Below, in pieces: positions 53,322-57,014 of a stretch of DNA of 64,000 nt. A model generated the notes under the pieces. That model made no database searches. It was not told the DNA's origin and saw only the letters and a program-made list of their open reading frames with translations. The stretch spans positions 124,001 to 188,000 of the forward strand of contig JAQCAD010000002.1 in assembly GCA_027621915.1 (NCBI GenBank), written 5' to 3'. Source of the stretch: Pseudomonadota bacterium. Its GTDB lineage: Bacteria > Pseudomonadota > Gammaproteobacteria > Steroidobacterales > Woeseiaceae. How positions within the stretch are numbered: position 1 is the stretch's first letter; each line of letters begins with the position of its first letter. Both the position numbers and the translations under genes were made by a program.

Positions 53322-54908
53322 TCAAGGTGACCAGCGAACGCCGAGTAGTACCTGCGCGCGATCGTATTGAATACGAAAATCGTTTGACGCGACTTCGCGA
53401 ACCAGGTACTCGGCAACGAGATCCAGGCTTTGTGTCATTTCAAAAGTTGCAGTCACGTGCCCCAGAGCAGATTCCTGAGTTTTGCGACCTGCCGCGGGTT
53501 CATGAAATGCGAAGGCAGCCTCGTAGTCGTAAAGATAGTAGGACACCGAGGCATCAAGATCGAAACGCCGACCGAGCTGCAAGTGGAATGCGGCGCCGAA
53601 GCCATCACGAACGAAATTGTTGTAGCCCAGATAGCGATCTTCGCGTTCCGTCCGCTCGTAATCGACACTGAACCACAACCAGTTAGTGATGCGCTGGCGT
53701 GCCTCGATCCCGAGTTCAATGTAGTCGTAACGAATCGTCGGGTTGCCAAGCGGCTGTGTACCATCCAGCTCGAATGATGTTCGATCGCTGTAGCGACGGG
53801 TGTAATACTCAGCTGTAACGCGCAACAATGAGGTCGAAGTGAACCGGTATTGGCCATTGAGGCCGACAGTCCAGTATTCGTGATCGTATTCGGGAACCGC
53901 AGCAACTTCGTCGTAGTTCCACAGTTGTCCTTTCGCTCGTGCCCCGAGCGTCAGCCCACCCCATCGTTTACTTGCCCAGAACTCAGGACCGTAACGCAGA
54001 TAAGACATCCGGTTTGAGATGTCCTCGCCCGCAAGCTGACGCTCCAGACCGTCGTCGGGATCGACGTAATTCTCATCGTGCTGGGCGATCTTGAAAGCGC
54101 TGTACACACCGGTCTCGCGCTCTTCCGTACGTCGGTGATACTCGCTGCCAAATGCTGCCTCGTGGAGATATTCATCGGCCGCTTTCAGATTCTCATCCTG
54201 GTAGTATCGGCCGCCGAAACGATAGCTGCCGAAGAAGCCTTCATTCTCCAGGCTGTTGACCTGGTATCTTGCGGAAAGGCTGATCGGCACGAAAAGTCCG
54301 GACTGAACCACTGGCGTGACCAGCGGCTGGGCAGGATCCGCCAGATCAATATACGGATCCTTCGGCGAACGGAAAACATTATCGTCAATACCGGCACCAA
54401 CACGTACTCGCAAATCGAGATACGTCAGGTTCCGTTCCTTTTCTTCAACAGCAGCGGCTAATGTAACGGGCGAATCGGCCGAGATCTCGTCCTGCAATTC
54501 CCTTATTGCGCGCCGAGCGAGACGGCTAATGTCTTGATTCTGCGGTTGATCGCGGGCCATGCGGAACCAGCGGAGCGCCTCGTCCAGGTCGCCAAACGCG
54601 TAAGCGTTCAACCCGAGGTTGTAGTGAGAAATCGCTTCCAGCGGACCGTAACTCGCCGCCTTTGTCAATTCATCTCTCGCCCGAATGTGTTGCTTCGCCC
54701 GGTAATGGGCGACACCTGTATTGTAATGGAGTAGTGGCGTATCCATTCCGGCGTCAGCTGCTTCCCGATAACGCAATAGCGCTGCCCAGTAAAGATCATC
54801 TCGAAAAAGCCGATTGCCATCCGCGAACAATTCGCTCGCGGTTGCGGCGAGCGCAGGCGCGACCGGGACGAGGCAAAGCAGTGCAAATGCCGCGACAATA
54901 CGTCGCAT
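53322..54908 (-). CDS. TPR-containing outer-membrane beta-barrel protein
   Basis: The roughly 528-residue protein has a signal peptide (MRRIVAAFALLCLVPVAPALA), then three to four TPR units (about residues 30-135: LFADGNRLFRDDLYWAAL, LLHYNTGVAHYRAKQHIRAR, AISHYNLGLNAYAFGDLDEAL). A long region of alternating beta strands ends in LLGVRWSP. The barrel opening RVGAGIDDNVFRSP is typical of TPR-linked porin-like proteins. The plan resembles SLAM-type or polysaccharide-export proteins, but identity is unproven. ATG 54908 starts the signal peptide; GTG 54920 and TTG 54950 are alternatives. Confidence 0.75.
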   Translation of the reverse strand: MRRIVAAFALLCLVPVAPALAATASELFADGNRLFRDDLYWAALLRYREAADAGMDTPLLHYNTGVAHYRAKQHIRARDELTKAASYGPLEAISHYNLGLNAYAFGDLDEALRWFRMARDQPQNQDISRLARRAIRELQDEISADSPVTLAAAVEEKERNLTYLDLRVRVGAGIDDNVFRSPKDPYIDLADPAQPLVTPVVQSGLFVPISLSARYQVNSLENEGFFGSYRFGGRYYQDENLKAADEYLHEAAFGSEYHRRTEERETGVYSAFKIAQHDENYVDPDDGLERQLAGEDISNRMSYLRYGPEFWASKRWGGLTLGARAKGQLWNYDEVAAVPEYDHEYWTVGLNGQYRFTSTSLLRVTAEYYTRRYSDRTSFELDGTQPLGNPTIRYDYIELGIEARQRITNWLWFSVDYERTEREDRYLGYNNFVRDGFGAAFHLQLGRRFDLDASVSYYLYDYEAAFAFHEPAAGRKTQESALGHVTATFEMTQSLDLVAEYLVREVASNDFRIQYDRAQVLLGVRWSP

Positions 54909-55057
54909 CAAGCTGGTCACAGGACCGAGTCGATTTGTCACGTAGATCAAAATGTTCCGGACTCCAGAGGGGACGCCATCCCTTCAATACATGAGTCGAA
55001 TTCTGCCCGATTATGGAAAATTCGCACTAACTGCGTGTCAACAGTGTGACATGGCGC

Positions 55058-55096
55058 AAAAAAATCCCCCCGATTGGTTAACCAACGGAGGGATTT
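55058..55096 (-). terminator. Rho-independent terminator of the sigma/anti-sigma/acidic-protein operon
   Basis: On the minus strand a long stem (AAATCCCTCCGTTGGTT paired with AACCAATCGGGGGGATTT) ends in a run of seven T. It lies about 60 bases after the acidic-protein stop. The gap 54951-55158 holds nothing else recognised beyond the TPR/barrel leader. Confidence 0.85.
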
Positions 55097-55158
55097 TCGG
55101 ACTTGTCAGCGGAAACGGCGTCTACCCTGGGTCCGGCGCCGATGAGCGGTATCGGAGA

Positions 55159-55671
55159 TTAAACTAGGTCGCCGTCAGCTCCATCGTCGTCAGCCACGTC
55201 GTCAGACGCAACGTCATCATCGGACTCGTCGTCGTCCATGTCATGATCCATTTCTTCCTCGTCGACTTCGTCAGTATCAACGTCATCGCCTTCGTCGAAG
55301 TCGCTTTCCTCTTCAGAGTGCTCTTCGTCTTCGTCAGATACGAAGTCTTCGTCATGCTCGAATTCGTCAGATTCTTCGTCACGCATGTCGTCACCAGACG
55401 CGGTCTCTTCTTCATCACGACTATCGTCGTCGGCGTCAGATTCTTCACCATCGTGCATATCGTCGTTCGAGTCGTGATCGCCTTCGCTGTCATTTTCCGC
55501 GACGGGTCCGACCATCTCAAGCACCTCACCGTCGAGGTCCGCGACGCGATCGAGAACTTTCATCGTGACATCAAGCTCAGCAATGTCGGCTGCAACTATC
55601 GCAGGAAACAGTGCGAGGCAACTAAGCACGAGACTGGCCGCAAACAATTTAATCTGTTTCATCTTACTCAC
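55159..55671 (-). CDS. Secreted, extremely acidic protein of unknown function
   Basis: The 170-residue product has a signal peptide (about residues 4-28, KLFAASLVLSCLALFPAIVAA) and a short ordered segment (ELDVTMKVLDRVADLDGEVLE). From about residue 60 to the end it is almost all Asp, Glu, Ser and Thr with scattered His and Met (such as DDMHDGEE and EEEMDHDMDDD). No domain is recognised. The composition suggests a disordered, cation-binding exported protein. It sits 39 bases after an anti-sigma gene and before a strong terminator. ATG at residue 4 is an alternative start. Confidence 0.75.
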   Translation of the reverse strand: MSKMKQIKLFAASLVLSCLALFPAIVAADIAELDVTMKVLDRVADLDGEVLEMVGPVAENDSEGDHDSNDDMHDGEESDADDDSRDEEETASGDDMRDEESDEFEHDEDFVSDEDEEHSEEESDFDEGDDVDTDEVDEEEMDHDMDDDESDDDVASDDVADDDGADGDLV

Positions 55672-55710
55672 TCCGTTTGATACTTCGGTAGTACCGAAGC
55701 TCCTTTAAAA

Positions 55711-56349
55711 CTAGATAACAATCACCTGCAGGCGAAAAATCTTGTCGTCATTCTCGTGCTGCAAGGTGGCCAAAAGTTCTCCGCCGACAGGCGAAATCGC
55801 GACCAGCGTGAGCGGCAGAACGTTTCTGCCCTCTTTAAGGCTGGTCTGCCAGGTAATTTCTCGTTGCCCGGCGAAACCGTCAATCTCAATCCCGACCGGC
55901 AATGTTACGGTCATCGTTGCATTGATCAATGGCGTCGCCGATGCGAAAACGAGGTTAAACGTTTGTGGAGCCTCCAACGCCATCGTGACTGATGGAACAG
56001 CAGGATCGTCGATGTCGGCTGCCGTAAAGAACACACCACTGACAATCCACACCATTACCGCTGCAGCGATTGCGCCGCCGAAGCCGGTCATCACCCAGCG
56101 ATTCCGCTGACGACGCACACCGCTTTGCACTGCATTAGCAATCGCCCGGTCGAAAAATACAGGATCCGGCCGGGGCATGACAGACTTCCCATAATTCTCC
56201 AGCCGTTTGTGGAGCTCACGCGACGTGTCAACCAGTTGCCGGCAGTCAACGCACTCATCAATGTGCCGATCGAGCAACTCCATTTGCGTGCCATGGAGTG
56301 CACCCAGAAGATAGTCGTCGAGCTGTTCAGTGATGAGTTTACAGGCCAT
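55711..56349 (-). CDS. Transmembrane zinc-finger anti-sigma factor
   Basis: The 212-residue protein has an N-terminal zf-HC2 domain with the zinc ligands in DRHIDECVDCRQL (HX3CX2C), one membrane helix (about residues 87-108, GFGGAIAAAVMVWIVSGVF) and a C-terminal periplasmic beta domain that includes LPVGIEIDGFAGQREITWQ. This layout fits anti-sigma factors that hold an ECF sigma at the membrane until an envelope signal arrives. It lies 30 bases after the sigma gene. Confidence 0.88.
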   Translation of the reverse strand: MACKLITEQLDDYLLGALHGTQMELLDRHIDECVDCRQLVDTSRELHKRLENYGKSVMPRPDPVFFDRAIANAVQSGVRRQRNRWVMTGFGGAIAAAVMVWIVSGVFFTAADIDDPAVPSVTMALEAPQTFNLVFASATPLINATMTVTLPVGIEIDGFAGQREITWQTSLKEGRNVLPLTLVAISPVGGELLATLQHENDDKIFRLQVIVI

Positions 56350-56379
56350 GGTTTCTTTCCTCGTTACTTCCAGACACGA

Positions 56380-56931
56380 TCAATCGGCGGAATAGGTTCC
56401 ATCGGCAGCGAGAATTTCACGAAGCCGTTCCCTCGCCCGATGCAGGCGGGATTTAAGCGTGCCGACTGGCGCACCGGTTATTTCCTGAATTTCGGAGAGT
56501 TTATAACCCTCGCAGTCATGCAGCATGACGACCATTCGATGCTCCTCGCTCAAGGTATTCAGTGCACGGTCCAGCTGCATTATGTTATCCAGCTGTTCGG
56601 CGTCCTTGACCGGGTCCAGGTGGCCAGGTAGTGATTCCAGCTCTTTCCCCGGTACCTGATCTTCGCCCACGACGACCAGTCGCTGCCGCGCGAAGCGGCG
56701 CCGGTTGTCGATGAAATGGTTGTACATGACCTTACATAGCCAGGAACCCGCCTCTTCCAGTTCGACCAGTTCTGCCATGCGGGGAAATATCTTGGTCAGG
56801 ACGTCCTGGAACAGATCCTCGGCCTCCGGCCGATTACCGGTGAGGCGAAACGACAGACGATAAAGGCGGTCGAGATGTGGCCGCAGCAACACATCAAAGC
56901 TCGTCTGTTGATGGTGATCGACCGGGTTCAT
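56380..56931 (-). CDS. ECF-type RNA polymerase sigma factor
   Basis: The 183-residue protein has sigma region 2 (LYRLSFRLTGNRPEAEDLFQ; DVLTKIFPR) and region 4 (TLSEEHRMVVMLHDCEGYKL; GAPVGTLKSRLHRARERLRE) and no sigma-1 or sigma-3 regions. Target promoters are not evident in the sequence. It lies directly upstream of the zinc-finger anti-sigma gene and downstream of cyoE on the same strand, separated from cyoE by 83 bases. Confidence 0.93.
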   Translation of the reverse strand: MNPVDHHQQTSFDVLLRPHLDRLYRLSFRLTGNRPEAEDLFQDVLTKIFPRMAELVELEEAGSWLCKVMYNHFIDNRRRFARQRLVVVGEDQVPGKELESLPGHLDPVKDAEQLDNIMQLDRALNTLSEEHRMVVMLHDCEGYKLSEIQEITGAPVGTLKSRLHRARERLREILAADGTYSAD

Positions 56932-57014
56932 AGGCCCGAGTGTAGTTACGAACGCCTATTTCACAAGCTTCCTTTGCGGAAACTGAGAACTGGGGACAGG
57001 GACCAGAGGAGTGA

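Follow-up and report, generated by a model that had tools for sequence, protein, structure and literature searches.

Do the genes for an ECF sigma factor, a zinc-finger anti-sigma factor, and a secreted acidic protein that lie together on the minus strand of a Woeseiaceae genome form a complete regulatory unit, and what might that unit do? The locus was analyzed within a 64,000-nucleotide stretch of contig JAQCAD010000002.1 (the window). The initial annotation, made from the DNA letters alone, had described the trio at 55159 to 56931 as a compact three-gene operon. All three genes were present, and a strong terminator closes the unit, but the description was incomplete: it left out a fourth gene of the conserved unit, at 53322 to 54908, as well as the cytochrome-oxidase genes directly ahead of the sigma gene. 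Our evidence base is sequence comparison plus one medium-confidence model each for the fourth-gene barrel (pLDDT 74.7) and the anti-sigma factor (pLDDT 71.1). The features are as follows.

56939..56966, minus strand: sigma70-like SIG promoter, TTGTGA-N16-TACACT, 7 bp before the ATG; kept at the other loci from the window's genus and less regular elsewhere in Woeseiaceae
56380..56931, minus strand: ECF sigma factor gene (SIG), 183 amino acids (aa); Pfam Sigma70_r2 and r4_2 above cut-off
56374..56400, minus strand: predicted ECF-type promoter, GGAACC-N16-CGTGT, at the SIG 3′ end, reading into ASIG and the acidic gene
55711..56349, minus strand: anti-sigma gene (ASIG), 212 aa; Pfam, alignments, model, and Foldseek
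55159..55662, minus strand: third gene, small secreted acidic protein, 167 aa; family conserved beside ASIG
55504..55581, minus strand: conserved N-terminal motif of the third protein (ELDVTMKVLDRVADLDGEVLEMVGP), DVT[MI]xV[ILM]...IxLP/MxGP in homologs with acidic, neutral, and basic tails
55057..55098, minus strand: intrinsic terminator after the acidic gene; hairpin of -24.7 kcal/mol (z -4.35) and then a U-run
55036..55059, minus strand: conserved block before the barrel gene (TTGCGCCAyGTCA...), from an alignment of about 35 Woeseiaceae loci
53322..54908, minus strand: fourth gene, TPR-barrel; Pfam, AlphaFold model, and Foldseek; accompanies ASIG and the third gene in nearly all loci

We searched 107 Woeseiaceae genomes for the anti-sigma factor and found it in 79. 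The initial annotation had staked its reading on the acidic gene accompanying homologous sigma/anti-sigma pairs, and in all 33 fetched Woeseiaceae loci that extended far enough, that gene lay directly downstream of ASIG. The order cox3-surf1-sco-ctaB-SIG-ASIG-third-barrel-uvrD was kept in most loci of the family, and ctaB, surf1, cox3, and uvrD are the module's neighbors in the window. A class-wide profile search of 369 genomes returned about 30 full-length anti-sigma matches from many families; a phylum-wide sample gave full-length matches in Gammaproteobacteria only, with just the zinc-finger part matching elsewhere. A SIG homolog adjoined nearly every anti-sigma homolog inspected. Of 28 class-wide loci, 26 have an adjacent barrel gene; 2 of these barrels lack TPRs (family f147), and 1 is on the opposite strand. 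Of the other two loci, one stops at a contig edge and one (G322) has no barrel; G322, and perhaps also the incomplete G201, carries an anti-sigma factor and third protein without a barrel. A barrel homolog also accompanies paralogous sigma/anti-sigma pairs of only 25 to 35% identity, in the same and in other families. SIG, ASIG, and barrel distances correlated across loci (Spearman 0.63 to 0.81), with species relatedness contributing in part; in a subset of 29 divergent loci the coefficients were 0.32 to 0.67, and 0 of 500 permutations were as high. Judged by these comparisons, the unit to be explained is a set of four genes and not a triplet; most of the Woeseiaceae sampled carry this module, as do roughly one in ten genomes of the class-wide sample.

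SIG encodes a minimal ECF sigma factor with sigma2 and sigma4 domains only. ASIG carries a zf-HC2 domain at aa 3 to 37 (27.0 bits against a Pfam cut-off of 22.2); the Hx3Cx2C zinc-binding anti-sigma domain is present in the window protein, and C3, H29, C33, and C36 are nearly invariant in the class-wide alignment. A transmembrane (TM) segment at about aa 85 to 106 is followed by a periplasmic beta-sandwich at about aa 118 to 212. The model, with a helix at residues 95 to 105 in the TM position and a sandwich at 120 to 211, bears out the membrane anti-sigma factor with a periplasmic beta domain that had been proposed. These two portions are the best conserved of the protein. Pfam gave no FecR family match in ASIG, zf-HC2 alone being above cut-off. 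For the periplasmic domain, a sequence search for known structures returned only zinc-finger anti-sigma domains and chance matches, and Foldseek returned only generic Ig/complement-like sandwiches (TM-score about 0.35). In the large Woeseiaceae genus g11, the zinc-finger region (aa 4 to 40) has been lost, leaving about 45 cytoplasmic residues. Because short two-helix anti-sigma domains such as CnrY are still able to bind sigma2 and sigma4 (PMC7406223), this loss need not mean loss of function, and because the g11 inhibitor keeps its TM segment and periplasmic domain, the zinc finger is not essential to the inhibitor. Proteins of the zinc-finger-less type occur in loci L009 to L013 and in most g11 genomes, with TM and periplasmic portions about as conserved as elsewhere.

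The third protein, whose length is counted from the ATG judged the better start (counting from GTG 55671, as listed, gives 3 aa more), consists of a Sec-type signal peptide (aa 1 to 25), the conserved motif, and a D/E-rich tail (57% D+E). A short inverted repeat, CTTCGGTA-C-TACCGAAG, lies between the ASIG stop and the acidic gene start (window positions 55670 to 55710). Neither the window protein nor the other members tested matched a Pfam or NCBIfam family. Within Woeseiaceae, conservation extends beyond composition to both ends of the protein, with MKQL...DLDVTMEVLDD...MRGPDD at the N terminus and DDFEDGEDVDxDEF near the C terminus. Class-wide, third genes were located partly by regular expression and partly by eye (one locus, L060, was unreadable because of masked sequence); the protein keeps a signal peptide, the motif DVT[MI]xV[ILM]-x(8-16)-IxLP (...MxGP in Woeseiaceae), and a hydrophilic, low-complexity tail, and a simple pattern recovered the motif in 24 of 28 loci. 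Homology between this beta motif and the first strand of the ASIG sandwich (VTM...) was considered and set aside, as the two are alike in some alignment rows but the segment is too short for a test. In L118, L124, and L129, the tails are near-perfect short tandem repeats (e.g., DDREDSMS and DAQDEKD), suggesting rapid length change in these sequences.

Tail charge varied widely among hand-picked homologs, from -0.55 net charge per residue in the window through zero in L120 and L058 to +0.34 in L113, while the N-terminal motif was kept. Acidity, as far as these sequences indicate, is a trait of Woeseiaceae and not a conserved property of the third protein. The cation buffering that the initial annotation had suggested for the acidic protein therefore fails as a general function, because the tails elsewhere are neutral or basic. 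The variation counts for a role of the tail as a spacer or in threading or display, roles that we regard as candidates.

The fourth gene encodes a signal peptide, about three TPRs (aa 24 to 157), and a predicted 16-strand outer-membrane barrel (aa 162 to 526). Pfam returned a TPR match and a weak BBP2_2 match. The AlphaFold model (built from 11 sequences) has 16 strands, and Foldseek ranked Escherichia coli BcsC first for it and also found PgaA. No TonB-dependent receptor, plug, or signaling-domain family matched in the window's barrel family. The window barrel had no match to SlipAM/DUF560 (PF04575), and the best PF04575 score among its homologs was 21.1 bits against a cut-off of 22; shorter homologs gave subthreshold matches to SlipAM and to the PelB barrel. 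In L129 (family f147), the barrel homolog next to ASIG and the third gene is about 310 aa long and has no TPR. Since it sits in the module, TPRs are dispensable in that lineage. The presence of the TPR-barrel points to outer-membrane signaling or export.

Regulation was assessed with a script that allowed small variants of the first hexamer of the ECF site and required CGT. A site at the SIG-ASIG junction was found in 39 of 44 Woeseiaceae loci (0.49 expected from shuffles) and in 33 of 35 loci of other families (0.35 expected), and the spacer was 16 bp in 71 of 72. The SIG stop codon shifts from about 60 bp after the site to 38 bp before it while the site stays in register, so coding constraint does not explain the conservation. 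With this predicted promoter upstream of ASIG and the acidic gene in 72 of 79 loci, control of the acidic gene by its own sigma factor, as initially proposed, is very likely; because the fixed-spacer promoter lies just before ASIG, free sigma should raise expression of both ASIG and the third gene. A second ECF site lies upstream of SIG in 20 of 34 other-family loci (versus 0.25 expected), and the strict pattern was found there in 0 of 31 Woeseiaceae loci; a window match upstream of SIG (GGAAG...CGTAAC) was discarded as not conserved. The sigma70-like promoter suggests that SIG mRNA is leaderless or nearly so in the window's genus, and it argues for a constitutive supply of sigma there rather than a full positive loop. 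The cytochrome-oxidase genes cox3-surf1-sco-ctaB come immediately before SIG, which has its own promoter.

Searching the window's genome with the strict ECF pattern gave 10 matches versus 2 in a reversed control. These were mostly inside genes, and a genome-wide regulon was rejected; because the module's site is the only strict copy directly before a convincing gene start, the predicted regulon is mainly local. A second good ECF site (GGAACCTTTCTTCATAACCGAGCGTGT, G000:C58:1005-1031, L144) lies between two minus-strand genes and reads into a stretch without a clear gene, where a small RNA or small open reading frame is possible.

Most of the Woeseiaceae loci inspected also have a terminator behind the acidic gene, which rules out a terminator-free four-gene operon in this family. 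The conserved block before the barrel gene continues to about 54990 (the g11 version reads TTGCGCCACGTCATAGTTTTG ... CTGACATAACG). The GGAACC site is absent from the block upstream of the window's barrel gene, and in Woeseiaceae the block probably belongs to the barrel's own promoter or forms a regulator site. With a terminator intervening and a different upstream block, control of the barrel by the sigma factor in Woeseiaceae is putative. In some other families (e.g., L120), the third and barrel genes overlap, and co-transcription is therefore implied there.

A second module type occurs in Woeseiaceae and other families (L051 to L058 and L062 to L067), with ECF sites upstream of the sigma gene and, in several, also at the end of the anti-sigma gene. 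On the opposite strand upstream of SIG, a lipoprotein gene that diverges from the module and has a divergent ECF site of its own was seen in L052, L054, L056, L057, L062, L066, L067, and L147 to L149, the last three representing one other genus that shares the arrangement. Both of the two lipoproteins tested matched DUF4382 (PF14321). These genes tie the paralogous modules to surface-type lipoproteins, and the divergent lipoprotein is a possible surface client of the TPR-barrel.

Taken together, we favor an autoregulated trans-envelope ECF signaling module comprising a sigma factor, a membrane anti-sigma factor, a small secreted protein, and a TPR-linked outer-membrane barrel, a reading to which we assign a probability of about 0.5. 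Within it, the comparisons across loci give good support to the four-gene unit and its predicted autoregulation; the binding partners, among them the protein that would touch the anti-sigma factor, are inferred. In the resting state of barrel and secreted protein, the anti-sigma factor would keep sigma at the inner membrane. Loss, blockage, or loading of the barrel would let either the beta motif of the third protein (DVTMxV...) or the TPR domain of the barrel act on the ASIG beta-sandwich. Regulated proteolysis is the usual route by which most membrane anti-sigma factors are inactivated, and inactivation here, probably by that route, would induce the module. Free sigma would then increase the levels of its inhibitor and of the secreted protein through the junction promoter, and those of the barrel as well where no terminator intervenes. 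The hydrophilic tail may be a sequence-tolerant spacer or a surface-displayed segment, possibly lying in the barrel. The acidic protein may also feed back on the sensor, as the initial annotation suggested.

A bolder version of this scheme is doubtful. In it, the third proteins would be a new class of trans-envelope messenger whose tail occupies the barrel lumen; with the barrel absent or blocked, the freed beta motif would bind the ASIG sandwich and sigma would be released. If true, this would place an RcsF-like sensor within an ECF operon, and tail charge would be free to vary as long as the fit to the barrel was kept.

The strongest rival, rather unlikely though less so than the messenger proposal, is an export module in which the TPR-barrel serves as a translocon, like those of type XI/Slam or the BcsC/PgaA family, the third protein is its dedicated surface cargo, and the sigma pair only sets the dose. 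A single chain with TPRs and a barrel, next to a small Sec-exported protein with a fast-evolving tail, suits this idea, as do the top Foldseek rank of BcsC, the subthreshold SlipAM and PelB matches of shorter homologs, and the DUF4382-type lipoprotein genes with their own ECF sites in the paralogous modules and one other genus, which may encode surface clients. However, the SlipAM cut-off was reached by no member, the window protein had no match, and Slam cargo carries an 8-strand barrel (PMC8406197) that is absent from the third protein. The barrels without TPRs in one family, and the third protein and anti-sigma factor without a barrel in G322, also weigh against it.

Two further readings start from the Woeseiaceae locus itself. 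One holds that the acidic protein is a periplasmic buffer of cations (Ca, Mg, or metal) or a sensor ligand, induced by sigma under ionic stress. The composition of the window tail, the largely marine habit of Woeseiaceae, and the supported co-regulation with the anti-sigma factor are in its favor, but homologs at the same gene position and with the same motif have neutral to basic tails (including +0.02, +0.17, and +0.34 net charge per residue), and Pfam matched no family in the window's acidic protein, EF-hand and known calcium-binding domains included; we consider it improbable. The other would have the sigma unit answer cytochrome-oxidase assembly or copper, as cox3-surf1-sco-ctaB precedes the module in most Woeseiaceae loci. 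This synteny is limited to Woeseiaceae: the oxidase neighborhood is not kept in other families although the module is complete there, SIG is served by its own promoter, and other genes lie beside SIG in some Woeseiaceae (L075 and L085). We rejected a cytochrome-oxidase link, which is the least probable of the readings and highly so.

The favored signaling module resembles the cell-surface signaling systems FecI-FecR-FecA and HasI-HasS-HasR, for which the HasS-HasR interaction offers a comparison of layout (PMC3984077). There, too, an ECF sigma factor, a membrane anti-sigma factor with a periplasmic sensor, and a barrel with an N-terminal periplasmic domain are co-encoded, and sigma controls the module. 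In those systems the barrel is a TonB-dependent receptor, whereas here TPRs precede a barrel modeled as 16 strands, the anti-sigma factor combines zf-HC2 with a beta-sandwich, the module also encodes a secreted protein from a new family, and sigma is predicted to promote its own inhibitor. Type XI secretion (Slam, DUF560/PF04575; PMC8406197) likewise joins TPRs and an outer-membrane barrel in a single chain next to a small exported protein, with remote subthreshold similarity to some of our barrel homologs; here, however, the barrel falls below the curated cut-off, the candidate cargo has no 8-strand barrel, and a sigma pair is linked. The polysaccharide secretins BcsC and PgaA share TPR repeats followed by a 16-strand barrel, as judged from the model, but here there are only about three TPRs, about 10% identity, and no adjoining synthase genes: none were found among the window neighbors, and none were shared among the neighbors of other loci.

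Dma/Das similarly places an ECF sigma factor under an anti-sigma system reaching from the cytosol to the outer membrane, but Dma is one protein, reported from Bacteroidota only, whereas the components here are separate proteins of Gammaproteobacteria. ASIG itself, at 212 aa with one TM region and a small modeled beta-sandwich at its end, is not a double-membrane-spanning anti-sigma factor. RpoE-RseA also has an inner-membrane anti-sigma factor with a periplasmic domain and an assumed outer-membrane-related signal; the present module differs in having no rseB or rseC, a module-specific barrel and secreted protein, and an apparently local regulon. With class I zinc-type ECF sigma/anti-sigma pairs it shares a sigma2/sigma4-only sigma factor, the Hx3Cx2C domain, and a predicted autoregulated promoter. 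The literature searched yielded analogs but no published description of the four-gene module, and its sigma factors may already carry a group number in the main ECF classification.

Among bacterial signal transduction systems, ECF sigma factors form a major class, but coupling to an outer-membrane protein has to our knowledge been reported for few of them. The data presented here point to an undescribed system that may monitor or remodel the outer membrane, and the predicted junction promoter would provide a direct reporter for finding the signal of the module. If the favored reading is true, such coupling would come in a third, widespread architecture in addition to those built on a TonB-dependent receptor or on Dma, and it would include a fast-evolving family of secreted proteins that has yet to be named.
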